64,000 nucleotides of DNA from positions 62,001 through 126,000 of the forward strand of contig CP133187.1 of assembly GCA_030913685.1 (NCBI GenBank), read 5' to 3'. This DNA comes from Oscillospiraceae bacterium MB24-C1. Lineage in GTDB: Bacteria > Bacillota > Clostridia > Oscillospirales > Ruminococcaceae. Shown here piece after piece: positions 6,482 to 38,465 of this stretch (position 1 is its first letter; every line of letters begins with the position of its first letter). The notes under the pieces were generated by a model. That model was not told the origin of the DNA, searched no databases, and worked only from the letters and a program-made list of their open reading frames with translations. The position numbers and the translations under genes are program-made.

Positions 6482-7594
6482 TTAATAGGTCAGTTTGCGG
6501 TTGCGGGCAGTGACCTCCCACCAATCCAAGATTCGGCCTTGCTGCACCACGGGGACGCTGGGGTACAGCGCGCTGGTGGGACAGATATGTGTGGGGATTG
6601 CATACAACAGCGTGCCCACAGGGGGGATGTCCTTGATGTACTCGGGGGGCACACGCACAACCCAGTGCTCCTCGTTTTGCAGCACCGTCTTGGCGTACTC
6701 CATGCCCACAATTTCGGCACGCTCGCCTGCCGGGTCAGCTGCGACCGCCTTGTAACCCAAATCCAGCGTAAAGGCATCCACGTCCGTGCGGCTGATCACG
6801 CGGGTGAGCAGGATGCCCCCAGGGGTAAAGTCCAGATCCTTGAAGTTGTCCCGGTAGCCCGCATCCTGAATAATACCGGTGCCCGGTGAGAGGAATTCCT
6901 TGGTGCCCTGTGCATGACACGGGAAGCTTGGCGTGCCGCCCATCACCAGCACGGAACAGTCGATACCCTGGGCTTGCAGTGCCTCCCTAATCTTCAGTAT
7001 CTTGGCGTTAGTTTCGGAAACGCCAGCATCCCGCTGGGCAAAGTCATTTTCGTGGCGGTTGCCGTCATAGCAGTGCATGCCTCTCATCTCAATGCCGGGT
7101 AACTTAGCCCACGATTCGTACATGGCTTGGGCTTTCTCCAGTGCCACACCGGTGCGGTGCATCCCCATGTCCATGTCCATCAAAAGGCGCACGCTACATC
7201 CCGCTGCTACGGCTTGCCGACTCAGTTCCAGCACCATCTCCGTGTCATCGTCGATGGCCCAAAAACGTACCGTCGGATAAGCGGTACTCAGCCGGAGGAA
7301 GCGGGTGATGTTGGGCCCGATCAGCGGGTAGGCTACCAGCGCGTCGCTGCAGCCGACCGCCGCTACCATCTCTGCTTCGGCAATGGTGGCGCACTTGAAA
7401 CGGGTAATGCCCATACTCATCTGTAGCTCTACCATTTTTGCCATCTTGTGGCTCTTCACATGAGGCCATAGCCGATCCACGCCCCCTGCAATTTGCGTAG
7501 TACGGCGGATGTTCGCCTCGATGATTTCTTTGTAATAAACTAGTTGTGGAGTTACCAGCTGCTCCGCGCCTTCAAACGAATATTTGTTGGCCAT
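6482..7594 (-). CDS. D-serine dehydratase / D-threonine aldolase-like fold-type III PLP enzyme
   Basis: A 370-residue cytoplasmic enzyme with an alanine racemase-like barrel. The PLP lysine is expected at K47 in PHVKSHK. The C-terminal metal site reads THIC (H336, C338). Known D-serine dehydratases of this family bind zinc with an H-x-C pair, whereas D-threonine aldolases use H-x-D, so beta-elimination of a D-3-hydroxyamino acid is the better guess. ATG 7594 has AAGGGGAA at a good distance; the frame extends 12 codons further without support. It is the last gene of the RidA-M20-TRAP cluster, 13 bases after ridA. RidA would take the enamine product, which supports dehydratase chemistry. Confidence 0.82.
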   Translation of the reverse strand: MANKYSFEGAEQLVTPQLVYYKEIIEANIRRTTQIAGGVDRLWPHVKSHKMAKMVELQMSMGITRFKCATIAEAEMVAAVGCSDALVAYPLIGPNITRFLRLSTAYPTVRFWAIDDDTEMVLELSRQAVAAGCSVRLLMDMDMGMHRTGVALEKAQAMYESWAKLPGIEMRGMHCYDGNRHENDFAQRDAGVSETNAKILKIREALQAQGIDCSVLVMGGTPSFPCHAQGTKEFLSPGTGIIQDAGYRDNFKDLDFTPGGILLTRVISRTDVDAFTLDLGYKAVAADPAGERAEIVGMEYAKTVLQNEEHWVVRVPPEYIKDIPPVGTLLYAIPTHICPTSALYPSVPVVQQGRILDWWEVTARNRKLTY

Positions 7595-7607
7595 TTCTAT
7601 TCCCCTT

Positions 7608-8072
7608 TCAATATTCCACCAGCGCTTCAATCTCCACCGCGATGTTGCCCGGGCAGGTATTCACACCCATGGCCGTACGGGCCGGGCAGCCAACTTCTTC
7701 GCCAAACAGTGACACCAGCAGGTTGGAGCCACCGTTAACCACTTGCGGTTGTTGATAAAAATCATCCGCACTATTTACAAACGCTAGCACCTTGACAAAG
7801 CGCTTGATTTTGTTTAGATCACCCAACTGTGCTTCTAAATTAGCTAGAAGGTTGAGCATGCAGTTATATGCCGCCTTTTGGCCCTGTTCCAATGTCAGAT
7901 CTTTGCCCAACTTACCCACAACAGTCTCTCCGTTGCCCAGATCCGGGCCGCAGCCGCTACAGTACAGCAGGTGATTACTAAACTCTTGTACCGGCGTATA
8001 AACCCCTCCCTTGGCCGGAGGCTTGGGCAGGGTGATATTGAGCTCTTTTAGCTTATCGTATACATTTGCCAT
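7608..8072 (-). CDS. RidA/YjgF family reactive enamine/imine deaminase
   Basis: A 154-residue trimeric-type Rid protein carrying the active-site arginine in CPARTAMGV (R132) and a late acidic residue in VEIEA (E147). Rid enzymes hydrolyse 2-aminoacrylate and related enamines/imines to 2-oxoacids. ATG 8072 is preceded by GGAGAAAA; the frame reaches 8159 but that stretch is not supported. At 154 residues it belongs to a longer Rid subgroup than classical RidA (about 125). It lies between the M20 peptidase and the D-serine dehydratase-like gene, exactly where an enamine-processing step would be needed. Confidence 0.85.
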   Translation of the reverse strand: MANVYDKLKELNITLPKPPAKGGVYTPVQEFSNHLLYCSGCGPDLGNGETVVGKLGKDLTLEQGQKAAYNCMLNLLANLEAQLGDLNKIKRFVKVLAFVNSADDFYQQPQVVNGGSNLLVSLFGEEVGCPARTAMGVNTCPGNIAVEIEALVEY

Positions 8073-8228
8073 AATTTTTTCTCCTTTTCCGTGCAGACTA
8101 GTTCGTCCGCGTGGATTTCTTTTGTCATAAATATAATGATAGGTGTGTCTCGGCCGCATAGGCTACCACCACAACCGCAATTGGGCTGTCGTACAGATTT
8201 ACAGCAGCGTGTGCAGTGTATTCACATC

Positions 8229-9383
8229 TCAAGCCAGTCCCTTCTGTGCTTCCAGAACAATCCGCTCGTATAGTGCCACCGCCTGCTCAAACTGTTCCTT
8301 TGAGACAAATTCGTCAACGGTGTGCGCTTGGTTCAGGCTCCCGGGCCCACATAGGATCGTTTCAAATCCGGCGGCGGTGAAACAACTCATATCACAGCAG
8401 GCACCAAAATAGGTGATCTGAGGCTCTGTCCCGAACAAATCATGGTAGGCCCGGGTCGTCGCCTGCACCAGTGGCGCGGTAGGTTCAGTCATGCCGGGTT
8501 TCACCTCAATAAAAGGCTCGATGCCCCAGCTCACCTCTGGCTGTCCCTGAAACAGACGGTGCAAAAGTTCGTCCATCTGCGCTACCAGACTTTGGGCCGT
8601 CTCACCGGGTACAGTGCGAAAGTCCAGCACCGTCTCGCAGCTACCGGGCACCACATTATCCTTGATACCGCCGTTTACGCGGGTAGCGGAAACGCTAGGC
8701 GGCGGCAGCACCTGCTGATGCAGACTCTGCTTTTCCTGGTTTACCCGGTCTACCGCCAGTAAAAAGCGCGCCATCATAGTATTCGCGTTGATACCCTTTT
8801 CCGGTTGTCCGGCGTGACACTGACGACCCGTCAGGGTAATGCGTAACCGTACTACGCCCCTGTGGGCCACATGCAACTGGTTTTCGGTACCCTCGCCAAT
8901 GATCACCCAATTGCGACTGCCCTTTTCAAAGCTGCGAACAAATGCTTTTGCCCCGGCACCGTCGATCTCTTCGTCTGCCACGAAAAGCAGTATTAACTCC
9001 TGCCCGCGCAGGGTGCCCTCCTGCTTGATTTTGATGGCGGCCGCCATCATAGCCGCTAGTGCACCTTTCATGTCGCAGGCGCCGCGACCATATAACAGAC
9101 CGTCCTCTTCAGTCAGTACAAAGGGGTCATGTTTCCAACCCTCTCCCGCGGGTACCACATCAAGGTGTCCGTTAAAAATTAGCTTATTGGGGCTGTTGCC
9201 CAACTGCACCAAAGCGTTGGCTCGTCCGGGGGCCACCGGCTGAACCTGTGTGTCAAAGCCGTAGGCTTTCATGGTGCTTGTCACATATTCTGCCAGCGGC
9301 TGCTCATTGCCGGGCGGATTCACCGTCTCAAAACGGATCATCTCTTCAAAAAAGCGCCGCGCCAAAGCCAGATATTGCTCCAT
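8229..9383 (-). CDS. M20 family metallopeptidase / deacylase (ArgE/DapE type)
   Basis: A 384-residue zinc hydrolase with FNGHLDVVP (H73, D75), GRGACDMKG (D104), ADEEID (E138, E139), the dimerisation-domain CHAGQP (H190) and a final zinc histidine in NQAHTVDEF. ArgE/DapE-type enzymes remove acyl groups from amino acids. In this operon it probably frees an N-acylated amino acid before the PLP enzyme acts; the acyl group and stereochemistry are unknown. The ATG at 9383 is kept. It lies 48 bases after dctM and 156 bases before ridA. Confidence 0.88.
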   Translation of the reverse strand: MEQYLALARRFFEEMIRFETVNPPGNEQPLAEYVTSTMKAYGFDTQVQPVAPGRANALVQLGNSPNKLIFNGHLDVVPAGEGWKHDPFVLTEEDGLLYGRGACDMKGALAAMMAAAIKIKQEGTLRGQELILLFVADEEIDGAGAKAFVRSFEKGSRNWVIIGEGTENQLHVAHRGVVRLRITLTGRQCHAGQPEKGINANTMMARFLLAVDRVNQEKQSLHQQVLPPPSVSATRVNGGIKDNVVPGSCETVLDFRTVPGETAQSLVAQMDELLHRLFQGQPEVSWGIEPFIEVKPGMTEPTAPLVQATTRAYHDLFGTEPQITYFGACCDMSCFTAAGFETILCGPGSLNQAHTVDEFVSKEQFEQAVALYERIVLEAQKGLA

Positions 9384-9431
9384 ATTTTTTCCTTTCTGCC
9401 TTTCGCAGCCGCATCATAGTTATCGGAAGGC

Positions 9432-10700
9432 TCACATCATGTTTGCGAGCCACATGGTCAGCGGCGGGTAATAGGCTACCAGTAAAATCACCACGGCGCC
9501 CGTGATGAAGAAGGGCACCAGATCCTTTGTGCATTCCTCAATGCTGATCTCCGCAATGTTACATGAGATGAACAGCGTGGTACCCACCGGTGGCGTGAAT
9601 AGGCCCAAGGCCAGCGCACATAGACAGACAATGCTCATCTGGATGGGGTCGACCCCAATGGCAGTAGCGATGGGCATGAAGATAGGCAGGAAAATGTACA
9701 GGTTTGGCACGTTGTCCATGACCATACCGGCAAAAAACAGAATAAGTACCATCACTAGCATTAGCAGGGAGTTAGGAAGATTCAGGCTGATTAGCGTCTT
9801 AGCAATCATGGTAGGAATGTTATTACTTACCAAAATCCACTGCATGATGGTGGCAGTGCAGACTACCATCATTACGACGGTGGTGCCAATAGCCGAAGCC
9901 TCCAGTGCCCTGAAAATTTTTTTCAGATTGAGGCTTCGATAGACAAACAAACCAAGGAACAGGGCGTACACCACGCAGATGGAGGCGGATTCAGTGGGGG
10001 TAGCGATGCCCAGTACGATGCTGCCAAGCATAAATACCGGGAACAGGATAGCCCAGGCGGCGTCCCTGCTGGCAGCCCAGATCTCGGGCCATTTGGCAGC
10101 TTCCTCACGGGGATAGTTGTTGCGCTTAGCCATCCAGACGGTGGTGGCCAAATAGCCCAGGCCGATTAGGATGCCGGGAATGGCACCCGCCAGAAACATC
10201 TTTGCTACAGACAAACCGGTGATGTAGGAGATGACGATCATAGTACTACTGGGTGGAATAATGATACCAACCACCGAACTGGTGGCATTGATAGCCGCCG
10301 AAAAGGACTTGGGGTAGCCGCGGTCATTCATTTCTGGGATCAGGATAGCGCCCACCGAGGAGGCATCCGCTACAGAAGAACCGGACATGCCTGCCATGAT
10401 CATGCTGGTAACTACCGACACACAGCCCAAACCGCCGGGCATTTGGCGCACCAAGACGCTGGCGAAGTTGATGAGTTTTTTTGCAATACCGGACTCCACC
10501 ATCAGGTTTCCGGCCAGTATAAAGAAGGGTACAGCGAGAAACGAAAAGGACTGGGTGTTGGAGAAAAATTTCTGTGCGGCGACCGCCACGCTTATCCCTT
10601 GCCCCTGCATAAAAACCATAGCTCCGGTACCCATACTGAACGCTATGGGAACGCCAATGGCCACCATCAATGCGAACACGATAAACATTACAGCAATCAT
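9432..10700 (-). CDS. dctM: TRAP transporter large permease (DctM)
   Basis: A 422-residue protein with about 12 membrane segments and the family features GVPIAFSMG near the N-terminus, GIIIPPSSTM in the middle and LFTPPVGTTLF late. It is the ion-coupled channel of a tripartite ATP-independent transporter. It overlaps dctQ by four bases, which implies translational coupling. It serves the small-molecule catabolic genes downstream on the same strand. Confidence 0.93.
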   Translation of the reverse strand: MIAVMFIVFALMVAIGVPIAFSMGTGAMVFMQGQGISVAVAAQKFFSNTQSFSFLAVPFFILAGNLMVESGIAKKLINFASVLVRQMPGGLGCVSVVTSMIMAGMSGSSVADASSVGAILIPEMNDRGYPKSFSAAINATSSVVGIIIPPSSTMIVISYITGLSVAKMFLAGAIPGILIGLGYLATTVWMAKRNNYPREEAAKWPEIWAASRDAAWAILFPVFMLGSIVLGIATPTESASICVVYALFLGLFVYRSLNLKKIFRALEASAIGTTVVMMVVCTATIMQWILVSNNIPTMIAKTLISLNLPNSLLMLVMVLILFFAGMVMDNVPNLYIFLPIFMPIATAIGVDPIQMSIVCLCALALGLFTPPVGTTLFISCNIAEISIEECTKDLVPFFITGAVVILLVAYYPPLTMWLANMM

Positions 10701-11206
10701 CTTGCTTCACCTCCTAATTTCAACACTTCCGTGTAGATGTACTTGATCAGGTTCCAGGTCACCACTAGGGTGATGCCCCCAAAACAGATGAGCATGGAGC
10801 CATAGACCGCAACCTTGCTGACCCGGGTCAGTGCTAAGATCTCACGACGCAGCTGATAGCACAGGAGCCATGCAGCTTTAGTCATCATGGTCGAAAAGTA
10901 TATCATCACCAGATAGACCAAAATCTCCAGACAGTGGCGAAATGCCCCGTGGAACTTCTCCTTAATAAAGGTAAGAGCGGTATTGCCATTGTTGCGGGCG
11001 ATGGACACCGCACTCAGCGCTACAATCCAGGGAAACAAGATGTTGGTCATTTCGTTTGAGATAACTACAGGAGTCTTGAAGATATAGCGGCAGGTCACGT
11101 CTACAAAAACGAAACAGGTCATCACGGCCATTAGAATTCCGCCTAAGCCGCTCAAAAGGCGGGTGAACTTCTCGATCACGCTGTCGATCGCAGTTACGAT
11201 GTTCAA
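10697..11206 (-). CDS. dctQ: TRAP transporter small permease (DctQ)
   Basis: A 169-residue protein with four membrane helices and the DctQ signature region (DVTCRYIFKTPV near residue 35, then NEMTNILFPWIVALSA). It scaffolds the large permease. The ATG at 11206 has AGGAGGCAAG upstream. A strong hairpin separates it from dctP. Confidence 0.9.
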   Translation of the reverse strand: MNIVTAIDSVIEKFTRLLSGLGGILMAVMTCFVFVDVTCRYIFKTPVVISNEMTNILFPWIVALSAVSIARNNGNTALTFIKEKFHGAFRHCLEILVYLVMIYFSTMMTKAAWLLCYQLRREILALTRVSKVAVYGSMLICFGGITLVVTWNLIKYIYTEVLKLGGEAR

Positions 11207-11279
11207 GACACTTGCCTCCTTTACTTATAAAATTTAATCATCTCACATTTTTATTGGCTGTCATCTGTTGTAACTTAAA

Positions 11280-11315
11280 TTTGGAGTTGGTGGGACCATC
11301 CTCACCAACTCCAAA
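11280..11315 (-). terminator. Intra-operon hairpin between dctP and dctQ
   Basis: A perfect 13-base stem (TTTGGAGTTGGTG with CACCAACTCCAAA) with a ten-base loop lies between the dctP stop and dctQ. It is not followed by a long T tract on the minus strand, so it may be a partial terminator or a 3' stabiliser giving more binding protein than permease. Confidence 0.65.
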
Positions 11316-11343
11316 CCGTTAAAGCTACATTTCAGAAATCAGC

Positions 11344-12396
11344 TTAGCCGCGGATGTCTTTGACAATCTCAACAATTTTGCTGTCCGCTGTCTCGGCAAA
11401 ATTATCGTACACACTGGAGACCTTCTCTGCGAAAGGTGCGGTATCCGGCGTTGTAATTTCCTTGAATTCGCCCTGCATTTTCTCTAAGTAAGTGGCATCT
11501 GCATTGGAAGCGTAGGCGCGGCCAGCCTCCTGAGCAGCGAGCGCTCCGTCCAGCAGAATCTTCTGGGTCTCCGCGTCGTAGCCGGCAAACTTTTCATCAT
11601 TCATAATAAAGTTAATGGCGTAGTAAAAGATGTTGGTGATGGCAAGATAATCCTGCACTTCGTAAAACTTCTGCTGATAGATGGCGTCCAGCGGGTTGAA
11701 CTGTCCATCCACAACGCCCTGACTCAGCCCCAGATACAGTTCGGAAAATGCAACGGTGGCCACAGAGCAGCCCATGCTCTCAAAGGTCTTGATGGAGGCC
11801 GCCTCGTTGGGGGAGCGCATCTTGATACCGGCCATGTCATCCACACTGTTGATGGCGCGTTTGTTGTTGGTGATTTGCGCCATACCCAGATCGCCGAAGG
11901 ACAGAATCTTGTAACCGTAATTCTGGGCTATCTCCTTGAAGCGATTACCCAGATTACCATCCAGCAGTGCATGACCCTCCTCAAAGTCCTTTACTAAGAA
12001 AGGAAGGCTGATAGCGGAGAAGGATGGATCGACTGTAGACATGTTTGAGATGCCGGGCAGGGAGAAATCCAGAGTACCCAGCTTGACCATCTCGGTCATC
12101 TCGGACTCGCTGCCCAGAGTTCCTGCAGAGAAGCAGTCCACCGTGATACGGCCGTTACTGGTTTTTTCCACATATTCCTTAAAGGTGTTGGCCATCACGC
12201 CGCGAACAGAATCCTCCACCGTGTTGTAGCCCAGCTGAAAATTGTAAGAGGGTAACTTCTCAGCAGCGGTGGATTCACCTGCACTGGTCTCACCTGCAGT
12301 GGAGGAGGCGGGAGTGCTGGTAGCCGTACCGCCGCAAGCGGTTAGCATCATGCCCAGCAGACTCATTACAAGAACAAGCGCGATAATCTTTTTCAT
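11344..12396 (-). CDS. dctP: TRAP transporter solute-binding lipoprotein (DctP)
   Basis: A 350-residue lipoprotein with signal MKKIIALVLVMSLLGMMLTA ending in the lipobox LTAC, then a Ser/Thr/Ala-rich linker. The binding domain contains GIKMRSPNEAASIKTFESMG and the QGVVDGQFNPLD segment typical of DctP. ATG 12396 follows GGAGTTAGAGTC; fourteen upstream codons in frame are not supported. First gene of the operon running dctP-dctQ-dctM-M20-ridA-PLP enzyme. The ligand is unknown; the neighbours suggest an N-acyl amino acid. Confidence 0.93.
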   Translation of the reverse strand: MKKIIALVLVMSLLGMMLTACGGTATSTPASSTAGETSAGESTAAEKLPSYNFQLGYNTVEDSVRGVMANTFKEYVEKTSNGRITVDCFSAGTLGSESEMTEMVKLGTLDFSLPGISNMSTVDPSFSAISLPFLVKDFEEGHALLDGNLGNRFKEIAQNYGYKILSFGDLGMAQITNNKRAINSVDDMAGIKMRSPNEAASIKTFESMGCSVATVAFSELYLGLSQGVVDGQFNPLDAIYQQKFYEVQDYLAITNIFYYAINFIMNDEKFAGYDAETQKILLDGALAAQEAGRAYASNADATYLEKMQGEFKEITTPDTAPFAEKVSSVYDNFAETADSKIVEIVKDIRG

Positions 12397-12653
12397 GACT
12401 CTAACTCCTTTTTCTTTTTCAGGCAAAGCAGTCCACACAGGGTAGCCTTGCTTGGTTTGAGTATATTAGTTAAAATAATTTTTTTCAATAGTTTTCTTAA
12501 TTTTTTGAACAAAAATTCTAATTTTCGACAATATGTTTAAAAATCTAATTCAAAACTGTTAAATTAGACAAATAAATTACGAAGTAATGAGCTAAATAAA
12601 GAATTTTTTTCTTGTTATTTTAAATGCAAATTTTAATTATTGAAATAATATTC

Positions 12654-12682
12654 TTTACTTCCTGAACCTGCTATGTTATGAT
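12654..12682 (+). promoter_or_regulatory. Probable promoter of the DauR-type regulator
   Basis: TTTACT and TATGAT are separated by 17 bases, about 40 bases before the start codon at 12720. The 323-base divergent region also has to hold the promoter of the TRAP operon; it is very AT-rich (12470-12660) and I could not fix that promoter with confidence. Confidence 0.4.
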
Positions 12683-12719
12683 GACATAAACATTTTTTCC
12701 AAAATTGGGAGGGAGCATA

Positions 12720-13376
12720 ATGGATAAGCTTCACAGAAATTTGGATATGTATCAGCGTTTACTAAAGATGCTAGCCGTACAGTTCGGCTCTACTTCCGAG
12801 ATCGTGCTGCACGATCTCACCGGAACCTACGAGCGTACAATTGTTGGCATCGAGAACGGTCACATCACTGGGCGCAAGGTGGGGGATTGTGGTAGCAACC
12901 TTGGGCTGGAGGTACTTAGGGCCGATCCGTGCAGATCCAAGCATGATACCTTTGGCTATCTAACTTACCTGAAGGACGGTCGTATCTTGCGCTCCTCTTC
13001 TATGTATATCAATGATGACGATGGGCGAATTGTTGGATGTCTGTGCATCAATACAGACATCACCGCTTTGCAGTCGGTTTCCTTTGTTCTAAGCGAGCTG
13101 ACCACCTCGAATGTGATAGAGAATCACCCTGAGGAAGTGTTTGCCCAAAACGTAGGTGAGTTGGTGGATTATCACATAGAGCGCTACCGGGAGCGCTCCC
13201 GCAAAGAGCCCTCGGAAATGGATAAGAGCGATAAACTGGATGCCATCCGCTATTTTGATGAGAAGGGTGTTTTTCTTATCTCTAAGTCCAGTACAAAAAT
13301 CTGCAAATTTCTGCACATCTCCAAGGGCACCCTCTACTCCTACCTAGAGATCGTGCGTAGCGAAGAGAGCAAATAA
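12720..13376 (+). CDS. DauR/YheO-type transcriptional regulator (PAS-like plus HTH)
   Basis: A 218-residue regulator. The N-terminal YheO-like PAS domain (about 5-120) contains EIVLHDLTGTYERTIVGIENGHI-type sequence and the closing GCLCINTDITAL. The C-terminal HTH (about 165-215) ends with FLHISKGTLYSYLEIVR. The best-known member, DauR, represses D-arginine utilisation genes and responds to a D-amino acid metabolite. ATG 12720 has GGGAGGGAGC upstream; five in-frame upstream codons are part of the ribosome binding site. It is divergent from the TRAP/PLP-enzyme operon and is very probably its regulator. Confidence 0.85.
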   Translation: MDKLHRNLDMYQRLLKMLAVQFGSTSEIVLHDLTGTYERTIVGIENGHITGRKVGDCGSNLGLEVLRADPCRSKHDTFGYLTYLKDGRILRSSSMYINDDDGRIVGCLCINTDITALQSVSFVLSELTTSNVIENHPEEVFAQNVGELVDYHIERYRERSRKEPSEMDKSDKLDAIRYFDEKGVFLISKSSTKICKFLHISKGTLYSYLEIVRSEESK

Positions 13377-13517: not shown

Positions 13518-14390
13518 TTAAACTGCCTGTTCAATTCTGAATTGGACAGGTGGTTTTCCGCTTAGTTTGCGGAGGGGACGAATGGTATTAAAATAAGCGA
13601 TTGCGTCTGTGATGACGGAAGAAAGGTCATCAGCAAGCCAGTAGTGAAACTGAAAACGCAAAACATCTTTGAACCTACCAAAGAAGCTTTCGATCACAGC
13701 GTTATCTCTGGGGTTGCCAGCCCTAGACATACTTTGGATCGCACCATATTTTTTAAGTAGAGTTTGGTATCCCGTGGAAATGTACTGGTTGCCCTGATCG
13801 CTGTGTAAAAGGATAGGGCAACCGGTACATTTAGCTTTTTCCAGGAGTCTGCGAGCGGCTTGGAGCACGAAAGTGTTGTCGAAGGATTTGCTCAGCTGCC
13901 ATTCGACAATTTCGTTGTTAAAAAGATCAAGGAAACAGACAAGATAAAACCATTGCCCTTTATGTTTAATATAGGTGATATCGGAACACACCTTTTTCAA
14001 GGGCAAATCGGAGCAAAATTCCCTGCTCAAAATATTTGGAACAAATTCATGCTCTTTTCCAGATTTAGTGCGGAACTTACCCCTACGCACGTATCCTTTG
14101 ATACCAAGCCGACGCATGGATTGCCAAACAGAAATATCACACACTTTCCAACCGGTTTGCAACAATAGGGTATCACGGATTTGCCTATAGCCCATAGACG
14201 GATAGTGAGCATGGATGTCGCGTACAAGCTGATCCAGATCTCTCTGTGATTTTTCATAGCGGTTAGGTCGATTGCCTCGTGCCAACCATTTGTAGTACCC
14301 TGAACGCGATACGCCGTTCATCTGACATAATTCCGTTATGGAGAGCTCTTTGCTTTTTTCCTGTATAAAACCATAGATTTGCTGTATCAC
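13518..14390 (-). CDS. IS3-family transposase OrfB (DDE integrase)
   Basis: A 290-residue protein with an N-terminal HTH_21-type region (MNGVSRSGYYKWLAR) and an rve integrase core. The three catalytic acidic residues are in CSDITYIKHKG (D), LLHSDQGNQY (D) and NAVIESFFGRFK (E), so it appears intact. It starts at GTG 14390, overlapping the orfA stop within GTGA. A run CAAAAAG just upstream resembles the slippery site used by this family to make an OrfAB fusion. Confidence 0.9.
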   Translation of the reverse strand: MIQQIYGFIQEKSKELSITELCQMNGVSRSGYYKWLARGNRPNRYEKSQRDLDQLVRDIHAHYPSMGYRQIRDTLLLQTGWKVCDISVWQSMRRLGIKGYVRRGKFRTKSGKEHEFVPNILSREFCSDLPLKKVCSDITYIKHKGQWFYLVCFLDLFNNEIVEWQLSKSFDNTFVLQAARRLLEKAKCTGCPILLHSDQGNQYISTGYQTLLKKYGAIQSMSRAGNPRDNAVIESFFGRFKDVLRFQFHYWLADDLSSVITDAIAYFNTIRPLRKLSGKPPVQFRIEQAV

Positions 14391-14733
14391 CTTCTTTTTG
14401 CACCGCCCCCTTTCAGTTCGATAGATTTTTTTAATCTTACTACATCAGCTTCTTTTTTCAACAATTCCCGTTTGAGTAATTCAACTTGATATTCCAATTC
14501 CTCTTCGCGGCTTAGTTCCTTTTTGCGGGTATATTTACTGAGTGGGTTACCAGGTTTCTTTTTAGGCTCCAGTACTTCCATGCCGTCTTTCAGATACTGC
14601 CCGCGCCATTCTTAATGCTGCTTGCGCTGATTCCTGTCTCCTTACTCAGTTTCCTGTAAGGTTCTCCTGCTATATAGCGCTTGACTATTGCCAGTTTTTC
14701 TGATGCGGTGTAGAACTTGTACCCTTTTGGCAT
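14387..14733 (-). pseudogene. IS3-family OrfA, frameshifted
   Basis: The first part starts at ATG 14733 (MPKGYKFYTASEKLAIVKRY, a helix-turn-helix protein) and runs to SASSIK. It then shifts into GAGSI-stop because one A appears to be missing near 14609-14611. In the other frame the protein resumes as RGQYLKDGMEVLEPKKKPG and a leucine-zipper-like coiled coil. Restoring one base gives a continuous OrfA of about 115 residues. OrfA normally binds the terminal repeats, so the element is probably immobile unless supplied in trans, or the deletion is a sequencing error. Confidence 0.8.
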
Positions 14734-14808
14734 TTTGAATCCCCTTTTAATGCTATATAAATAAAAGATAGTAGACACGCTTTTTTGTGTCTACTATCTT
14801 TTTACCAC

Positions 14809-15559: not shown

Positions 15560-17608
15560 ATGTTTAAAATCAAAGGCGCCAAGAAGACAGCTAAACGTGA
15601 AAAAGTCAAGCGGATTGCGGCTGAAAAAAAACCAAAACTTAAAAAAAGCAAAGGCAGGAGCATTGGCAGCAGACTCAACGTAATTTTTTCGCTTGGTCTG
15701 ATGGTTATGATGGCGGTAATAGTTGGTTTTGTCAGTGTATTTAACATGAATTTGTTAGAAAAAGATTTTTTGTCAAGTTGTAATTATAATATTAATGCCA
15801 TCATCGCATTGAAGGATGACAAAATTGGTGAAGCCACAAATATAACAGCAGAATTGTCGGGCTCGGCACCGTTGTCGAGCGCGCTGGCAAGTGGCGGGCC
15901 TTATGGTTATGTTCAGGCGGTTGCACCCTATCGCAAAAATAAGCCTATTGATGTTCTGATCGTCAGCTCTGACGGTAAGCAGGTTTATTCCTCCAGTGAA
16001 GCGATTAACAGCATAATAAACCAAGATTATGTTAAGCAGGCGCTTGACGGAACATTTAATAGTTTCGTGGATATTGTCAACGGAGATAATCTAGCGGCTA
16101 TTTCTTCGGTGCCTGTCTATAAGGGCAGTAAAGTGGTAGGTGCCATTATTGTGACAAACTCACTGCAGGATCAAGGTGAAATTGATGCCCTGAAGGCAAC
16201 AAGTGGTGCCGATTTTGAGGTGTTTTTAAATGATACACGAATTGCCACCACCATCGTTGTAGATAATGTGCGCCAAACCGGAACCCAGATGTCCCCGGAT
16301 ATCTATGAAGTTGTCAATAACCAAAGGGTAGGCTATTCAGGAAAAATCAATCTTATGGGCGCGCAATACATGGTCAATTATGAACCGCTGTTTAACCTGC
16401 AAGGTACTGTTGTCGGTTCGCTGTTCAGCGGCAGAAATCTTGTAAGCGTTAAACAGCAAAACCTGACCATAACAGTTGCAGCTGCAATTATCGGATTGAT
16501 TCTTTTTATTATAGCCGATCTATTGCTGTTGGCATTTGTTCGTCGCAGTATTGTCAAACCACTGACGCGTATTGTCGATTTGTCTGATCAGGTGGCCGGT
16601 GGCAATCTCGGCCTTTCAAATGTACTGGATGAGAACTACGCCTATACAAAAGATGATGAAATTGGCCGGGTATTCTTTGCACAGGTTGAAACTGTCAGTT
16701 CCCTCCGTGCCTATATTAGCGAAATTGATCGAATACTCAACGATTTAGCAGAGGGGAAACTGACAACTCAAACCCAGCAAAATTATAAAGGCGATTTTGT
16801 TAACATTAAGAACGTCCTGATTCAGGTGCAGAAAAAGCTGATTGATAACATGACAAGAATTAATCAGGCTGCTTCAATTCTTACCAACAGCGCCGGCGAA
16901 ATATCGGCCTCGTCTCAATCTTTGGCACAGGGCGCAACCGAGCAGGCCGGTTCGGTTGAGGAGCTTAACAGCACTATCGATGGCGTTTATCACAACGTTA
17001 AAAGCACGGCCGAACATGCACGTTCCGCCTCTGAAAAGTCTGAGCTTGTCGGACGTGAGGTTGCCTTGGGTGACCAGCGAGTGGACGAAATGATCAAGGC
17101 GATGAACGAGATTAGCGAAGCATCAGGCAAGATCGAAAAAATCAATCGTACCATTGAAGATATTGCCTTCCAGACTAATATCCTTGCGCTTAACGCAGCT
17201 GTTGAGGCTGCGCGAGCGGGTACTGCTGGTAAGGGGTTTGCTGTTGTAGCTGATGAGGTGCGCAATCTGGCGGGCAAGAGTGCCGAGGCGGCGCGCGACA
17301 CGACGGTACTGATACAAAATTCGCTGAACGCTATTGCAGCGGGTAGCGAGAAGGCGGATGAAACCGCTAAAGTCATGCGGCATGTAGTTACCGCTGTCAA
17401 CGAAGTGGTGACTACCATAGAGAGCATTTCTCAGGCAAACGAGGAGCAGGCCGTTGCCTTGGGCCAGATTCAGGGGGGCATGTCTCAGATTGCGAAAGTG
17501 GTCGGCACAACCTCTGCTTCGGCTGAGGAGAGCGCTGCCACAGCACAGGAGCTTTCAGCTCAGGCCAAGCTGCTCGAGGAATTGGTATCGACGTTTCAAC
17601 TGAACTGA
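15560..17608 (+). CDS. Methyl-accepting chemotaxis protein with Cache sensor
   Basis: A 682-residue transmembrane chemoreceptor. A very lysine-rich cytoplasmic N-terminus (about 1-36) precedes TM1 (about 37-60). A single Cache-type extracellular sensor (about 65-295) follows, then TM2 (about 298-325), a HAMP domain starting [15 protein letters not shown], and a long coiled-coil signalling domain. The hairpin tip reads [20 protein letters not shown] then [13 protein letters not shown], which binds CheA/CheW. The C-terminus (STFQLN) has no CheR-tethering pentapeptide. ATG 15560 has GAGAGGG about 13 bases upstream, slightly far. No che genes are nearby. The ligand is unknown. Confidence 0.93.
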
Positions 17609-30887: not shown

Positions 30888-31424
30888 CTACTTAATGCAG
30901 GCAGCACCTGCGGACATGGCTTTAACATTGATATCGATTAGCTTTTGCTTAGGTCCATGGAAAATATGCCTGAGCATTTCATAAACCGTCTCGACCTTTA
31001 GCGCTTTCGTAGCCTCTAAGTAAGCGCCCAGCATGGCCATGTTGGACACCTTGGCGTTGCCTAGATCTGAGGCGATCTCCACGCAGGGGATATAGTAGGT
31101 CTTGACGTCGGATCGGGTGGTTTTAATATCCACAATAGAGCTGTTAATCAGAATAATGCCGTTAGGCTGTACCGCAGACTCAAATTTTAAAAGTGAGGGT
31201 TTGCTCATTGCAATGAGTTCGGTCGGGTTGATGACAACCGGTGAACCGACCGGCTTATCAGAAAGCACAACGCAGCAATTTGCCGTGCCGCCGCGCATTT
31301 CAGGCCCGTAAGAAGGCAACCAAGATACATGAAGATTTTCAGCAAGACCCGCCTCGGTCATGGTTTTGCCGATGGCCATAACGCCTTGGCCGCCGAATCC
31401 AGCGATAATAATTTCTCTGGTCAT
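30888..31424 (-). CDS. 2-oxoacid:ferredoxin oxidoreductase gamma subunit
   Basis: A 178-residue gamma (CoA-linked domain III) subunit with IIIAGFGGQGVMAIGKTMTEA, SYGPEMRGGTANC and a late SNMAMLGAYLEATK, all standard for KorC/VorC. It works with the alpha, beta and ferredoxin-like subunits in CoA-dependent oxidative decarboxylation of a 2-oxoacid. ATG 31424 overlaps the beta stop by four bases; the longer frame adds unsupported residues. Last gene of the operon. Confidence 0.9.
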   Translation of the reverse strand: MTREIIIAGFGGQGVMAIGKTMTEAGLAENLHVSWLPSYGPEMRGGTANCCVVLSDKPVGSPVVINPTELIAMSKPSLLKFESAVQPNGIILINSSIVDIKTTRSDVKTYYIPCVEIASDLGNAKVSNMAMLGAYLEATKALKVETVYEMLRHIFHGPKQKLIDINVKAMSAGAACIK

Positions 31425-32173
31425 ACCACAGCCACCTCCCGGATGTCCTTGACTACGCCGAGCGGATAGACAGGGATCATATTCTCCTCCAACCATTTGA
31501 CTGCTTCGAGCGGCGTTTTGCCCCAGTTGGTGGGACAGGCCGCAAGCACTTCAACAAAGGTGAAGCCGGCGTTTTGCATCTGCAGTTCAAACGCGGTTTT
31601 AATTGCCTTTTTTGCTTTGTTCAGGTTGGGGATATTATCAACCGCCACGCGGGCGACATAGGCGGCGCCGTCGAGTGTGCCGAGCATCTCGCTCATCCGA
31701 ATCGGCGAACCGCAGTGTGCTTTGTCACGCCCTAAGGGCGCGGTGGTCGCTTTTTGCCCGACAAGGGTGGTGGGGGCCATCTGGCCACCGGTCATGCCAT
31801 AAATGGCGTTGTTAATAAAGATGGTGGTGAACTTTTCGCCCCGCGCTGCTGCATGGACAATCTCAGCCATGCCGATGGAGGCAAGGTCGCCGTCACCCTG
31901 ATAGGTGAAGACGGCCGCTTCAGGCAGTACGCGCTTGATGCCGGTGGCAACCGCCGGGGCGCGCCCGTGTGAAGCCTCTTGCATGTCGCAAGCGAAATAG
32001 TCATAGGCGAAAACCGAGCAACCCACCGGGCTGATGCCCACCGCCTTTTCGGTTAGATTTAGCTCTTCCAGCACCTCGGCCACCAGCTTGTGCACAATAC
32101 CGTGGGAACATCCCGGGCAGTAGTGCAGCTCTTTGTCGGTTAAAGCCTTGGACTTTTCATAAATGATTGCCAT
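31421..32173 (-). CDS. 2-oxoacid:ferredoxin oxidoreductase beta subunit (TPP-binding)
   Basis: A 250-residue thiamine pyrophosphate-binding subunit with HYCPGCSHGIVHKL (cluster/TPP region), the TPP motif TYQGDGDLASIGMAE and NNAIYGMTGGQMAPTT. It matches KorB/VorA of the four-subunit 2-oxoglutarate and branched-chain 2-oxoacid enzymes. ATG 32173 is chosen: GGGGAGGTG lies upstream and overlaps an in-frame GTG. It begins five bases after the alpha subunit stop. Confidence 0.92.
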   Translation of the reverse strand: MAIIYEKSKALTDKELHYCPGCSHGIVHKLVAEVLEELNLTEKAVGISPVGCSVFAYDYFACDMQEASHGRAPAVATGIKRVLPEAAVFTYQGDGDLASIGMAEIVHAAARGEKFTTIFINNAIYGMTGGQMAPTTLVGQKATTAPLGRDKAHCGSPIRMSEMLGTLDGAAYVARVAVDNIPNLNKAKKAIKTAFELQMQNAGFTFVEVLAACPTNWGKTPLEAVKWLEENMIPVYPLGVVKDIREVAVV

Positions 32174-32178
32174 ACTGC

Positions 32179-33240
32179 TCACCTCCCCAGCGCTGCTTTT
32201 GCAGCGGCTGCAATCTCATGCTGTGTTGGTATGATGCCGCCGGACCGGCCGCAGAACGCAACGGGCTTTTTGCCGAGCGCCGCATAGCGAACATCCTCGA
32301 GCATTTGGCCCATGCTCATCTCGACGCAGAGCACAGCCTTAACCGATGGGCGTTCAACCGCCGCACGAAGCTGCGTCTCTGGGAACGGCCAGAGGGTGAT
32401 GGGTCTGAACAATCCTGCTTTGATGCCCTCCTGCGCCAGCAGGTCAACGGCGCTCATCGCAATACGTGACGGTGTACCGTAGGCCACGAGTAGTACCTCG
32501 GCATCTTCGGTGCCGATTTCTTCGTAGCGCAGCTCATTTTTAGTGATTTCCTGGAACTTTTCATCCAGACGCCGGTTGTGCTGTTCGCATAAAGCGGGGT
32601 CGATGAAAAGCGAGTTTACAATATTGTGCTCACGCTTACCCTTTGTGCCAGTTGTGGCCCAGCCTTTTTCGATCGGTGCTTTTTCGGTCTGTTCACGCCA
32701 TTCAATCGGTTCCATCATTTGACCGATCATGCCGTCAGCCAGCACCATGACAGGATTGCGATAACGGTCGGCTAGTTCAAATGCATCCTGCGTAAGATCC
32801 ACCGCCTCTTGAATGGTGTTGGGCGCTAGCACCAACGTGCGATAGTCGCCGTTACCGCCGCCTCGGGTGGCCTGAAAATAGTCGCCCTGCGCCGGTTGAA
32901 TGGTACCCAAACCCGGGCCGCCGCGCATGACGTTGACGATGACGGCGGGCAGCTCGGCACCGACCATGTATGTAATGCCCTCTTGCTTCAAGCTGATGCC
33001 GGGTGACGAGGATGAGGTCATCACACGCGCGCCCGCGCCAGCAGCACCGTACACCATGTTGATGGCGGCCAGTTCCGACTCGCTTTGTAAAAAACATCCG
33101 CCCACCTGTGGCAGACGCATCGACATGTACTCGGGAATCTCATTTTGCGGCGTGATGGGATACCCGAAAAAATAGCGGCAGCCGGCGCGCACCGCAGCTT
33201 CTGCGATGGCCTCGTTGCCTTTCCAAAGCTCCATTGCCAT
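32179..33240 (-). CDS. vorB: 2-oxoacid:ferredoxin oxidoreductase alpha subunit (VorB/KorA type)
   Basis: A 353-residue subunit starting MAMELWKGNEAIAEAAVRAG, with YPITPQNEIPE, the SSPGISLKQEGI segment and RGGPGLGTIQPAQGDYFQA. The size and sequence fit the type often called 3-methyl-2-oxobutanoate dehydrogenase VorB; 2-oxoglutarate specificity (KorA) cannot be excluded. ATG 33240 follows GGGGGAAG. In fermenters the complex oxidises 2-oxoacids from amino acids, or runs reductively, with ferredoxin as partner. Confidence 0.92.
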   Translation of the reverse strand: MAMELWKGNEAIAEAAVRAGCRYFFGYPITPQNEIPEYMSMRLPQVGGCFLQSESELAAINMVYGAAGAGARVMTSSSSPGISLKQEGITYMVGAELPAVIVNVMRGGPGLGTIQPAQGDYFQATRGGGNGDYRTLVLAPNTIQEAVDLTQDAFELADRYRNPVMVLADGMIGQMMEPIEWREQTEKAPIEKGWATTGTKGKREHNIVNSLFIDPALCEQHNRRLDEKFQEITKNELRYEEIGTEDAEVLLVAYGTPSRIAMSAVDLLAQEGIKAGLFRPITLWPFPETQLRAAVERPSVKAVLCVEMSMGQMLEDVRYAALGKKPVAFCGRSGGIIPTQHEIAAAAKAALGR

Positions 33241-33255
33241 AATTTCTTCCCCCAA

Positions 33256-35356: not shown

Positions 35357-38300
35357 TTAGTTTGAACCGCCATCTAGTGCAGCTCTTTTAGCAGCTTTCT
35401 TTGCTGCCTTCTTCTCCTTTTTAAGCTGCTTTTTACGCAGTCGCTCCTGCTTGTCAAAAAGCAGATAGAAGGTGGGCAGCAGTAGCAGCGTCAAGGTGGT
35501 GGACGCCACCAGACCGCCGATGATTACGAAAGCCATTCCCCGCATTAGGGCGGCATTTCCTCCGATGCCTATTGCCATAGGCACCATGGCGAGAACAGTC
35601 GTGAGGGTTGTCATAAATATTGGGCGCATACGAAGCATGCCCGAGGTAAGCAGCGCATCTTCCGCAGAAAGATTTCTTTCTACACGAAGGCTGTTTGTGG
35701 TATCAATAAACAGAATACCGTTATTTACAACAATACCAGCAAGCATTAAAAATCCGAGCAACGACGGCATACTGATAGTGCAGTCAAATATGAACAGACA
35801 CAAGAAAGAGCCGATAAGAGCAAACGGTATTGAGATCATAACAACAATTGAGAAGACTGGGGACTCAAACTGCATTGCCATGACCATGAACACCAGCAAA
35901 ACTGCTGTTAAAATTGCACGGATTAAAGCTGTGAATTCCTCTTGCATACGCTCAGAGTCAGCAGTTTTTGTCAGCTCTACGCCTTTAGGAAATTGCAAGC
36001 TTTCAGCCTGTGCATTAAGAGTCTTAGAAAGGTCATTAGGCGCACTAGAAGCAGGCTGACCGGACAACGTAATAATGTATCTGCCATTTTGGCGAGAGAT
36101 ACTCAGTGGGCTGTTGGAATACTCAATAGTCGCTATATCAAATAGCGGAACAGGCATACCAGCAGCGTTTGTGAGGTTAAAGGATGCCAAATCACTGACA
36201 GTTTGAAACTGGTCATTTGGGTATTCAACACGCACTTCGTATTCTCTGCCGTTTTCCATCAGCTTGCAGGCTTCGCTACCCTGCATAATTGAATAAATGG
36301 TTCCCATTACTTGCTTGGGGACGAGACCTTGGGCACTAGCCTTTACAGGGTCTATCTTAACTTCGGCCTGAGGTTTTCCTGAGGCAAGCGTAGAGGTAAC
36401 GTGCAGAATATGCGGGTTTTGACGCATCATCTCTTCCACTTTCAGAGCACCTTCTTTGAGGCTATCAAAATCAGTGGACTGCAAGTTTATAGAAACGTTA
36501 GTGCCGCCACCCATTTGCTCTGTCTGGCTTGAGGCAGCGATACTGATGTCACAATCTATTGGATCCTTGGTTTCGCTTCTCCACTGATCAACAAGATCCT
36601 TGGTAGAGGTTTTACGATCCTTCTTTAAGTAGGCTGTAATAGAAGCATCTGAATTATTACCCATAGCCATGGCGAATCCTGATTTTCCTGCAACCATTGA
36701 ATAATGCTCCACATCGGGGTGGTTTGTGACCATTTGCTCAAGTGGAGAAAGAAGTTCGTGGATTCTATCATTATTTGTTCCAGGACGAACCGAGAGAGAA
36801 ATGTTGATTACGCCATCGTCGGTTGCAGGTAAAAGCTCTACACCAATAAGCGGCACTAAAGCCAACGAGCCAACGAGCAAAATTACTGCTAAAGCCACTA
36901 CCGTCTTTTTGTGACGCAAGGTTAGAGGTAAAAAGTTCGCGTAGGAAGTAGATATTTTATCCATTATCCGCATTACGATTTTAGGTTCGTGTTCTACGGG
37001 CTTTAGGTGGTAAAATACCAGTGGCACAATCGCAAGAGCAGAGAGCAACGAGGCGATGAGCGAGAATACAATTGTAAAGCACAACTGACCAAACAACTGC
37101 CCCGACAGCCCCTTAATAAAAGCAATGGGCAAGAACACGACAACAGTGGTGGCAGTAGAGGCAATAATTGAGCTAGCAACTGCCTTAGTACCTTCTAATG
37201 CAGATTCATAGAATGATTGGTTCTTGGTCTTTAACCTGAAGCAACTTTCAATAACAACTATCGAGTTATCTACCATCATACCGACGCCTATGACCAGGCC
37301 GCTCAATGAGAGTGTATTGAAGGAGAACCCCATACCGCTCATGGCTATCATGGTTACAAGAAGTGATATGGGGATTGAAGAACCTACGATTAACGAGGCT
37401 CGCCAGTCGCCTAAAAAGATAAACAACACAATCATTGCCAGTACAACGCCGAGAGCAAGCGTTTCTGCAACCGCTACTACGGCGGAAATAATGCTTTTGC
37501 CCTTATCATCTACAATGTCGATTTGAATGCCCTTGTTGGAGGTGTTAATTTCCTCAACGACCTTCTTTACAGAATTTATCATAGCGATAGTAGAAGCACT
37601 CTGTCGCTTTGTGACTTCTAAAATAATATTTTCATTGCCATTGTAATAGCTGAGAGATTCTATTTCTTTGTTGGTATAGTTTACATTTGCGACATCAGAA
37701 AGATGAATAATGTCTCCGCTAGCTAAGGTGATGGGCAAATGACGTAAATCTTCGGCTGTACTATAACTTACACCGCCGCGAAGAGTAAGATCAAGGTTAC
37801 CTTGCTCTATAATGCCGGCAGGCAGTGAAAAGTCCGCAGCACCAATAACATCTGAAAGCGTACGAATGGTTAACCCATATTGTGAAAGCTTTTCTTGCAT
37901 GAGCTCAACCTTGATGTATTCCTCAGATCCGCCGTAAACGTTTACAGATGCGACTCCGCCAAGTTTTTCAATCTCGGGTACTATATCCTCCTCAACATAA
38001 TACTTGAGGTCCACGTCGCCGACAGCCGAAGCGGAAAGGGTGATGACAGGCATCATATCCATGTTCATCTCAAATATTGTAGGATTATCGGCATCATCCG
38101 GAAGCAGGTTCCGATACATATCGATGTTGTTTTTAAGATCGGAGTGCGCCTTATCCATGTTGGTGCCATATTCTATTTCCAGTACAACAAGCGAGGCATT
38201 TTCCATTGAAATAGATTCTATGTTTTTGACACCGCTCAGAGTAGAGGCGGCATCCTCAATATGTGAGGTTACCTGATTTTCGACGTCCTCCGGTGACGCA

Positions 38301-38461
38301 CCGGGGTAGACGGTGTAAACTATGAGCGCTGGCATTTCGATATCCGGCATAAGCTCAAGAGGTGTAGAAAAGGTGGTTCCTATACCGAAAATCAAAAGTG
38401 CCAGTACTACGATGCAAACAGAAACAGGACGTTTTAAAGCAACTTTTGTTAAACCTATCAC
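35357..38461 (-). CDS. RND efflux permease (AcrB/hydrophobe-amphiphile type)
   Basis: A 1034-residue proton-driven efflux pump with the two-fold pattern of 12 helices and two large extracellular loops. It starts VIGLTKVALKRPVSV, with LMPDIEMPALIVYTVYPGASPEDVE near the N-terminus, SGLVIGVGMMVDNSIVVIE in TM4 and GFLMLAGIVVNNGILFID in TM10. A basic C-terminal tail (KKEKKAAKKAAKRAA) follows. The GTG at 38461 is chosen because AGGAGG lies nine bases upstream, four bases after the adaptor stop; the frame runs 14 codons further. As a Gram-positive member it has no outer-membrane factor. Confidence 0.92.
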   Translation of the reverse strand: MIGLTKVALKRPVSVCIVVLALLIFGIGTTFSTPLELMPDIEMPALIVYTVYPGASPEDVENQVTSHIEDAASTLSGVKNIESISMENASLVVLEIEYGTNMDKAHSDLKNNIDMYRNLLPDDADNPTIFEMNMDMMPVITLSASAVGDVDLKYYVEEDIVPEIEKLGGVASVNVYGGSEEYIKVELMQEKLSQYGLTIRTLSDVIGAADFSLPAGIIEQGNLDLTLRGGVSYSTAEDLRHLPITLASGDIIHLSDVANVNYTNKEIESLSYYNGNENIILEVTKRQSASTIAMINSVKKVVEEINTSNKGIQIDIVDDKGKSIISAVVAVAETLALGVVLAMIVLFIFLGDWRASLIVGSSIPISLLVTMIAMSGMGFSFNTLSLSGLVIGVGMMVDNSIVVIESCFRLKTKNQSFYESALEGTKAVASSIIASTATTVVVFLPIAFIKGLSGQLFGQLCFTIVFSLIASLLSALAIVPLVFYHLKPVEHEPKIVMRIMDKISTSYANFLPLTLRHKKTVVALAVILLVGSLALVPLIGVELLPATDDGVINISLSVRPGTNNDRIHELLSPLEQMVTNHPDVEHYSMVAGKSGFAMAMGNNSDASITAYLKKDRKTSTKDLVDQWRSETKDPIDCDISIAASSQTEQMGGGTNVSINLQSTDFDSLKEGALKVEEMMRQNPHILHVTSTLASGKPQAEVKIDPVKASAQGLVPKQVMGTIYSIMQGSEACKLMENGREYEVRVEYPNDQFQTVSDLASFNLTNAAGMPVPLFDIATIEYSNSPLSISRQNGRYIITLSGQPASSAPNDLSKTLNAQAESLQFPKGVELTKTADSERMQEEFTALIRAILTAVLLVFMVMAMQFESPVFSIVVMISIPFALIGSFLCLFIFDCTISMPSLLGFLMLAGIVVNNGILFIDTTNSLRVERNLSAEDALLTSGMLRMRPIFMTTLTTVLAMVPMAIGIGGNAALMRGMAFVIIGGLVASTTLTLLLLPTFYLLFDKQERLRKKQLKKEKKAAKKAAKRAALDGGSN

Positions 38462-38465
38462 CGAA

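Follow-up and report, generated by a model that had tools for sequence, protein, structure and literature searches.

The subject of this analysis is a 64,000-nucleotide stretch of DNA from Oscillospiraceae bacterium MB24-C1 (positions 62001 to 126000 of its single-contig 2.95 Mb genome; hereafter the window), in which six minus-strand genes form a single run at 6482-12396 and a divergent regulator gene lies at 12720-13376 on the plus strand. We conclude that the run probably serves a general scheme in which an N-acyl D-3-hydroxy acid is converted to a 2-oxoacid. That its substrate is an N-acyl-2-amino-2-deoxy-aldonate has roughly an even chance of being correct, and we hold a similarly balanced view of the fuller reading, namely, that this is a catabolic operon resembling the published ong pathway for N-acetyl-glucosaminate (GlcNAc1A), with both entry parts replaced.

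An earlier note on this DNA had described six minus-strand genes and a divergent regulator, and that layout is confirmed: all seven open reading frames (ORFs) are present in the ORF list, and each scores above the Pfam cut-offs for its named family. The features are as follows.

6482-7594, minus strand: fold-type III pyridoxal phosphate (PLP) enzyme of the HxC type, predicted D-3-hydroxyamino acid (amino-aldonate) dehydratase/deaminase (PF01168 and PF14031; K59, H348 and C350; ribosome-binding-site [RBS]-like start; in a clade with Rid/aminoacylase-linked enzymes)
7608-8072, minus strand: Rid (YjgF/YER057c/UK114) family protein, predicted enamine/imine deaminase (PF14588, PF01042)
8229-9383, minus strand: M20 enzyme of the ArgE/DapE type, predicted N-deacylase (PF01546, PF07687; TIGR01910)
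9432-10700, minus strand: TRAP large permease DctM (PF06808, 390 bits; TIGR00786 over cut-off)
10697-11206, minus strand: TRAP small permease DctQ, TTG start (PF04290, 70.3 bits)
11344-12396, minus strand: TRAP substrate-binding lipoprotein DctP (PF03480, 251.7 bits; signal-peptide-like start with LTACGG in the translation)
12397-12719, no strand: AT-rich divergent intergenic region with promoter-like sites facing both ways
12720-13376, plus strand: divergent PAS_6 + HTH_22 (YheO-like) transcription regulator (PF08348, 121.4 bits; PF13309, 57.1 bits)

An RBS-like stretch precedes the starts at 7594 (PLP enzyme), 8072 (Rid), 9383 (M20), 10700 (DctM), 11206 (the TTG of DctQ), 12396 (DctP) and 12720 (regulator); use of the longer ORF starts at 7630, 8159, 12438 and 12705 is improbable. 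The RBS-like starts give intergenic gaps of 13 to 156 nt, the PLP and Rid genes being separated by 13 nt, and a 4-nt overlap of DctQ and DctM. The PLP gene is single-copy in its own genome (E 0.001).

The evidence for the route comes largely from relatives. A genome contig scan with short peptide patterns, which reaches close relatives only, returned 12 loci. In 11 of them (L002-L012; mostly Lachnospiraceae, plus Eubacterium, [Clostridium] symbiosum, Petralouisia and one "uncultured bacterium," L005), the PLP enzyme is 51-59% identical to that of the window; the twelfth, from Poribacterium, encodes an enzyme with 43% identity. Queries taken from L004 and L012, two of these 11 loci, were run by tblastn (E 1e-8) against the fetched stretches. 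Every one of the 11 loci gave matches to Rid, an SSS symporter, a D-aminoacylase-like amidohydrolase, IlvD/Edd, a galactonate-dehydratase-like protein, Eda and PfkB (the last two weak, at 29-38%, in L002, L011 and L012); GntR was matched in 10 of the 11 and an iron-containing alcohol dehydrogenase in 8. Some ORFs were named by eye, and representatives were verified against Pfam and NCBIfam models: the galactonate dehydratase model gave 641 bits (cut-off, 311), the eda model was over its cut-off, and the PfkB kinases were nearest to the 2-keto-3-deoxy-gluconate (KDG) and 2-keto-3-deoxy-galactonate (KDGal) kinase models, below their cut-offs. The M20, DctM and DctP proteins of the window had no match in L002-L012, and the combination of TRAP and M20 was found in 0 of 14 related loci (L002-L013, L015 and L017; tblastn E 1e-8, fetched stretch only). 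The conserved synteny that the earlier note had proposed as a check held for the two-gene Rid-PLP core; none of the samples searched yielded the exact set of six genes, a result that leans against the expectation that these genes occur together in other genomes.

The PLP enzyme is rare. With its own genome counted, it was found in 2 of 148 genomes of the family and 2 of 394 of the order (1e-40), and in 2 of 391 of the class and 1 of 368 of the phylum (1e-60), samples that overlap and were not summed. The family of genome G765 had it in 1 of 13 genomes, G765 itself (1e-60); there, the match covered just the second half of the PLP gene (L029, 9304-9969), with a galactonate-dehydratase-like gene at a distance of about 5 kb.

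Other arrangements of the same core were found further afield. The L017 locus, from the same order, carries Rid and the PLP enzyme on one strand, with a divergent symporter, a PAS_6 regulator, an aminoacylase-like enzyme and an HpcH/HpaI aldolase, and it bridges the window and the Lachnospiraceae-type loci. In L015, an aminoacylase accompanies the PLP enzyme, and Rid was not found in the fetched stretch. Two Bacteroidota plasmids with 36% identical PLP relatives carry a row of Rid, a PLP enzyme labeled as D-threonine aldolase (D-TA) family and a membrane dipeptidase (L033, 8524-11240, and L034, 7522-10184); in L033, a GntP permease lies upstream of this row. A Subdoligranulum plasmid (L048, 117-3329), whose record carries no annotation, has a compact run of a distant HxC PLP enzyme, an aminoacylase-like enzyme and Rid. 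The recurring pattern is an importer and an amide hydrolase, two slots filled by nonhomologous families, together with Rid and the PLP enzyme. The outline that the earlier note had drawn, import followed by deacylation, beta-elimination and Rid hydrolysis, is thus supported, since relatives keep Rid and the PLP enzyme and place unrelated families in the transporter and amide hydrolase slots.

In a 29-row tree of PLP enzymes, from which L047 and L048 were left out, the window enzyme lies inside a 14-row clade (99/99). Twelve of the other 13 rows of this clade have Rid, an aminoacylase and a symporter, and L015 has the aminoacylase without Rid; L017 branches outside the window and the rest (93/94, not starred). 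The simplest reading is that the aminoacylase and the symporter are ancestral and that the window line replaced both with M20 and TRAP. The window enzyme keeps 118 of the 129 positions (91%) that are invariant in the 12 aminoacylase-linked enzymes (L002-L012 and L015), compared with 88-94% in four leave-one-out controls and 76% for L017; therefore, the conserved positions show no sign of a changed enzyme. It differs at positions 99, 191, 272 and 343, where the 12 aminoacylase-linked rows and L017 agree. Because the window enzyme falls in the relatives' clade and keeps these positions, the dehydratase-Rid core appears to be shared.

The Rid protein is 71-82% identical to its counterparts in 12 loci where the PLP enzyme shares 45-59% identity with that of the window, consistent with a common released intermediate. 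In all of L002-L012 (11/11), rid is the gene immediately upstream of the PLP gene, and in L017 the two adjoin; this conserved adjacency speaks against a chance pairing. The closest solved match is the uncharacterized structure 3d01 (E 2.7e-27); the nearest named solved relatives are the Rid1 proteins PA0814 (1.5e-17) and ACIAD3089 (2.2e-16), with which the window protein has an active-site-type arginine in common. The arginine of its PARTAMGV motif aligns with that in ARAAVGV of PA0814, so that the equivalent of RidA Arg-105 is kept, a residue type held to predict deaminase activity in the Rid family in the available excerpts of a study of the subfamily (PMC5619798). Unlike the Rid1 subfamily of those excerpts, the window rid gene belongs to a conserved pair with one PLP enzyme.

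The PLP enzyme has the HxC site that the earlier note had assigned to it, and the gene roles proposed there are likewise supported. With numbering from the TTG at 7630, K59 (in PHVKSHK) is the PLP lysine and H348-x-C350 the metal-type pair. Chicken D-serine dehydratase (PDB 3anu) has HxC by alignment, and the same pair is deduced for D-threo-3-hydroxyaspartate dehydratase (PDB 3wqc) from structure titles that name H351A and metal-free C353A mutants. Both share with the window enzyme the type III fold and a PHVKTHK-like lysine motif; in structural alignments, however, they are only 20-23% identical to it, and they score lower by sequence than the aldolases. In contrast, D-threonine aldolases and BhcC, which rank first among solved structures by whole-sequence match and also supply the top NCBIfam model, carry HxD in alignments with 4v15, 7dib, 6qkb and 7yqa, where the window enzyme has Cys at 350. 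The whole-sequence profile scores were 161 bits for D-threonine aldolases, 131 for BhcC, 89 for D-serine dehydratase and 75 for D-threo-3-hydroxyaspartate dehydratase; profile A1 held 11 sequences, with L004 and L009 left out. The predicted structure (mean predicted local distance difference test [pLDDT] score, 68) placed aldolases and dehydratases in a tie at Z 20.4-21.1, with decarboxylases (Z 20.3) and alanine racemases (Z 20.1) just behind; therefore, this model informs on fold only. Membership in BhcC (NF045642) was rejected, with 116.4 bits against a cut-off of 690 and HxD missing, as was a racemase or lysA-type function, for which there were domain-level matches only.

The two metal sites also differ in their association with Rid. 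With six Rid queries, tblastn detected Rid within the fetched flank for 22 of 26 HxC rows and for 0 of 5 HxD rows, an association that is support and not proof, because the rows are nonindependent, one of them came from an aminoacylase query and the flanks are unequal. The 31 rows comprised the window, L002-L012, L013, L015, L017, H1, H2, 12 more plasmid rows, H94 and H116; the 12 plasmid rows were chosen by hand for their diversity among the 40 records listed (of 470), H116 came from the aminoacylase query, and L029 was left out since only the second half of its PLP gene was matched. The HxC rows without Rid in the fetched flank were L013, L015, L040 and L041. Rid lies about 4.7 kb from the PLP gene in L036, where it is cut by the end of the stretch, and about 2 kb away in L042 and L046. 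Flanks were 4 kb for L037, L039, L043 and L045 and 9 kb for L047; no Rid occurred within the 4-kb flanks of L037, the one BhcC-annotated locus fetched. The Vibrio locus L047 was tried as a source of the ong PLP enzyme OngC and set aside, as it holds an HxD enzyme and no Rid.

The closest described counterpart is the ong cluster of Pseudoalteromonas prydzensis ACAM 620, OngIT-OngB-OngC-OngD-KdgK-OngR (PMC9537276), a pathway known from marine bacteria that live on chitin. In the excerpted text of that report, its parts are the SSS importer OngIT, the D-aminoacylase-like OngB (PpOngB is also described in excerpts of PMC12017989), the PLP deaminase OngC, the RidA-family protein OngD and a KDG kinase. 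OngC converts glucosaminate (GlcN1A) to KDG and ammonia and also deaminates D-Ser and D-Thr, and deletion of OngD abolishes growth on GlcNAc1A, the role of OngD being stated there as unknown. Complete ong pathways are reported in the same excerpts in Gammaproteobacteria and one Achromobacter, with OngC as a separate clade.

Both ong and the window have slots for an importer of an N-acyl amino acid-like compound, a deacylase, a fold-type III PLP deaminase and a RidA-family protein, and both encode the latter two together (6482-7594 and 7608-8072 in the window, a likeness of family membership only). In L002-L012, the ong slots are occupied by proteins of the same broad families. The window, however, has TRAP where ong has SSS, M20 where ong has the D-aminoacylase-like OngB, and PAS_6/HTH_22 in place of a MurR/RpiR regulator, and its Rid is about 154 aa, compared with 127 aa for OngD. 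At E 1e-8, neither the SSS nor the aminoacylase-like query taken from L012 matched anything in the window, and no PfkB match was found there, whereas the ong cluster carries a KDG kinase. Since the window keeps two ong families with another importer and deacylase, it would be ong-like in its working and departs from ong in importer family, deacetylase family and linked kinase. The earlier note knew of no named pathway with this set of genes; ong has the same functional slots, although two of them hold other families in the window. A literature search on a clostridial version, on galactosaminate/glucosaminate catabolism and on RidA with M20 and TRAP gave, among the papers listed, nothing relevant beyond the two ong papers, which is not proof of absence.

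The entry parts of the window were also compared with known proteins. The M20 protein scored 263.8 bits against TIGR01910 (ArgE/DapE; cut-off, 217.6); among the 25 of 62 matches listed, the other 24 models were all below cut-off and none was a carbamoylase model. Its solved relatives include dipeptidases. At E 1e-90, its own genome was the only one of 295 in the order to give a match; the best 15 of 30 plasmid records are 34-38% identical, and scans of viral contigs with DctP and M20 gave no relative. Among solved chains, DctP is closest to sialic acid binding proteins and to DctP proteins for which no ligand is named, and the match list also holds 7bbr, 4n8y and 4x8r, reported with KDG, galacturonate and glucuronate, respectively, in excerpts of PMC11668362. 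The carboxylate residues given in those excerpts are Arg152, Arg173 and Asn213 (4P47 numbering). Read from alignments, the equivalents of Arg173 and Asn213 are kept (IKMRSP and DGQFNPL), while that of Arg152, the first canonical carboxylate arginine, is Ala in DctP and Arg in five solved relatives with printed alignments; therefore, the DctP pocket may be unusual. The DctP model, a single-sequence prediction with a mean pLDDT of 39, was not used.

Taken together, these data lead us to propose the following route. The TRAP system DctP-DctQM would import an N-acylated 2-amino-3-hydroxy acid with the D configuration at C2, the likeliest compound being an N-acyl-2-amino-2-deoxy-aldonate, for example, N-acetyl-glucosaminate or N-acetyl-galactosaminate. 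Removal of the acyl group by the M20 enzyme would be followed by elimination of the C3 hydroxyl on the HxC PLP enzyme; the enamine thereby released would be hydrolyzed by Rid, yielding ammonia and a 2-keto-3-deoxy-aldonate. The route could be completed by a KDG-type kinase and a 2-keto-3-deoxy-6-phosphogluconate (KDPG) aldolase encoded at an unlinked site of the same genome, and the divergent PAS_6/HTH_22 protein may regulate the operon. The genome does encode Eda (over cut-off) and two PfkB kinases, at contig positions 1397497 and 1398603, beside UxuA and tagaturonate reductase; these kinases are nearest to the KDG/KDGal kinase models, under cut-off. The earlier note had left the substrate as a generic D-3-hydroxyamino acid, and the neighborhoods of the relatives shift the likelihood towards an N-acyl amino-aldonate, without proof; their galactonate-dehydratase-like neighbors point as much to N-acetyl-galactosaminate.

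Several points weigh against this proposal. The kinase, aldolase and sugar-acid dehydratase are absent from the window operon, and the Eda/kinase module is about 1.3 Mb away among uronate genes, where uronate use alone explains it. OngC acts on D-Ser and D-Thr too; therefore, such an enzyme cannot fix the substrate. The amidohydrolase of L004, the only one compared, matches PpOngB at 202 bits, less than D-aminoacylases at 253 bits, so that the GlcNAc1A-type substrate of the relatives is drawn from context. The order of replacement leans on the unstarred 93/94 fork, and by whole-sequence score the PLP family is closer to aldolases than to dehydratases. The contrast between HxC and HxD rows is statistically weak, since four of the five HxD rows are one clade and the fifth is outside the tree; furthermore, 11 HxC rows are close relatives, L048 was found via the aminoacylase query, the flanks range from 4 to 9 kb, and 4 of the 26 HxC rows lack Rid.

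A smaller substrate is possible, if rather unlikely: N-acyl-D-serine or N-acyl-D-threonine would be taken up and converted by the same chemistry to pyruvate or 2-oxobutanoate. These products would need no sugar-acid genes, and the operon has none; the activity of OngC on D-Ser and D-Thr fits, an N-acetyl-D-serine route is mentioned in the excerpts of PMC9537276, and the two Bacteroidota plasmids pair Rid and the PLP enzyme with a membrane dipeptidase, one of them also with a GntP permease. However, the nearest relatives found, whose invariant positions the window enzyme keeps at 91%, are surrounded by sugar-acid genes in every one of the 11 loci L002-L012.

We consider it improbable that the PLP enzyme acts as a D-threonine aldolase/BhcC-type retro-aldolase, with Rid as a general detoxifying partner or unrelated. 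The top sequence scores do go to aldolases, but the metal site is HxC and not HxD, the count of Rid neighbors runs the other way, with the nonindependence of rows and unequal flanks already described, and the distant HxC enzyme of L048 again occurs with Rid and an aminoacylase-like enzyme. There is a similarly slight chance that the operon scavenges amides, with M20 as a dipeptidase or carbamoylase acting on D-Ser-containing dipeptides or N-carbamoyl-D-amino acids. Dipeptidases among the solved M20 relatives, and the membrane dipeptidase in the same slot on the two Bacteroidota plasmids, would fit that explanation; the M20 score over the ArgE/DapE deacylase cut-off and the lack of a carbamoylase model among the 25 of 62 matches listed do not. 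TRAP systems, moreover, import small acids and as a rule not peptides.

The earlier note called the regulator DauR-type, of a family that senses D-amino acid metabolites, which exceeds the evidence: the protein has PAS_6 and HTH_22 domains and no NCBIfam match, and the sole support here is a relative, 45% identical over 209 aa, that lies beside the same Rid-PLP core in L017. PAS_6 plus HTH_22 is the architecture of DauR, and the window regulator has these two domains by Pfam. DauR is linked to the D-arginine dehydrogenase genes dauBA and responds to D-Arg metabolites; no FAD-dependent enzyme is among the seven window genes (Pfam). Between DctP and the regulator there are promoter-like sites in both orientations (12488-12460, minus strand, and 12654-12682, plus strand), and such sites are slightly more common than in shuffled sequences (19 versus a mean of 13.0; standard deviation, 3.6). 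Inverted repeats at 12390-12725 lie in a very AT-rich stretch and have no chance level; none is claimed as an operator.

More tentatively, and with less than an even chance of being right, it can be envisaged that many bacteria have a modular core of Rid and an HxC dehydratase with interchangeable front ends, in which Rid is an obligate pathway enzyme rather than a housekeeping detoxifier, and that both front-end parts of the window were exchanged jointly while its core stayed the same. The front ends would be SSS, TRAP or GntP importers with D-aminoacylase-like, M20 or membrane-dipeptidase amide hydrolases. If this view is correct, the exchange would imply that the same amino-aldonate core carries a new acyl group, and an N-acylated aldonic amino sugar route, not turned up in the literature search, would exist outside Proteobacteria; relative to the distribution reported in the excerpts of PMC9537276, the amino-sugar-acid route would reach beyond Gammaproteobacteria and one Achromobacter into Lachnospiraceae and related bacteria. 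The open question on the role of OngD would then have an answer as well. The interest lies in the paired exchange of importer and deacylase and in a testable role for Rid: with Rid 71-82% identical while the transporter and hydrolase are exchanged, Rid hydrolysis of the enamine released by the HxC enzyme can be tested directly. HxC versus HxD would, if the association holds, be a motif that separates dehydratases from aldolases in a group whose HxC members are often labeled "D-TA family."

Elsewhere in the window, an IS3-family transposase orfB (13518-14390, minus strand; NF033516 over cut-off) lies just downstream of the regulator. The orfA-like reading of this element is split over two ORFs, 14387-14581 and 14590-14778 (minus strand), so that the copy may be inactive. 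The next long ORF past it encodes a methyl-accepting chemotaxis protein with an sCache_3 domain (15560-17608, plus strand). Three genes at 30888-33255 (minus strand) encode a 2-oxoacid:ferredoxin oxidoreductase, the alpha subunit of which is over the VorB model cut-off; they lie about 18 kb from the operon, with many genes between, and are not counted as part of the pathway. An AcrB-type RND efflux pump is encoded at 35357-38503 (minus strand; PF00873, 741 bits).

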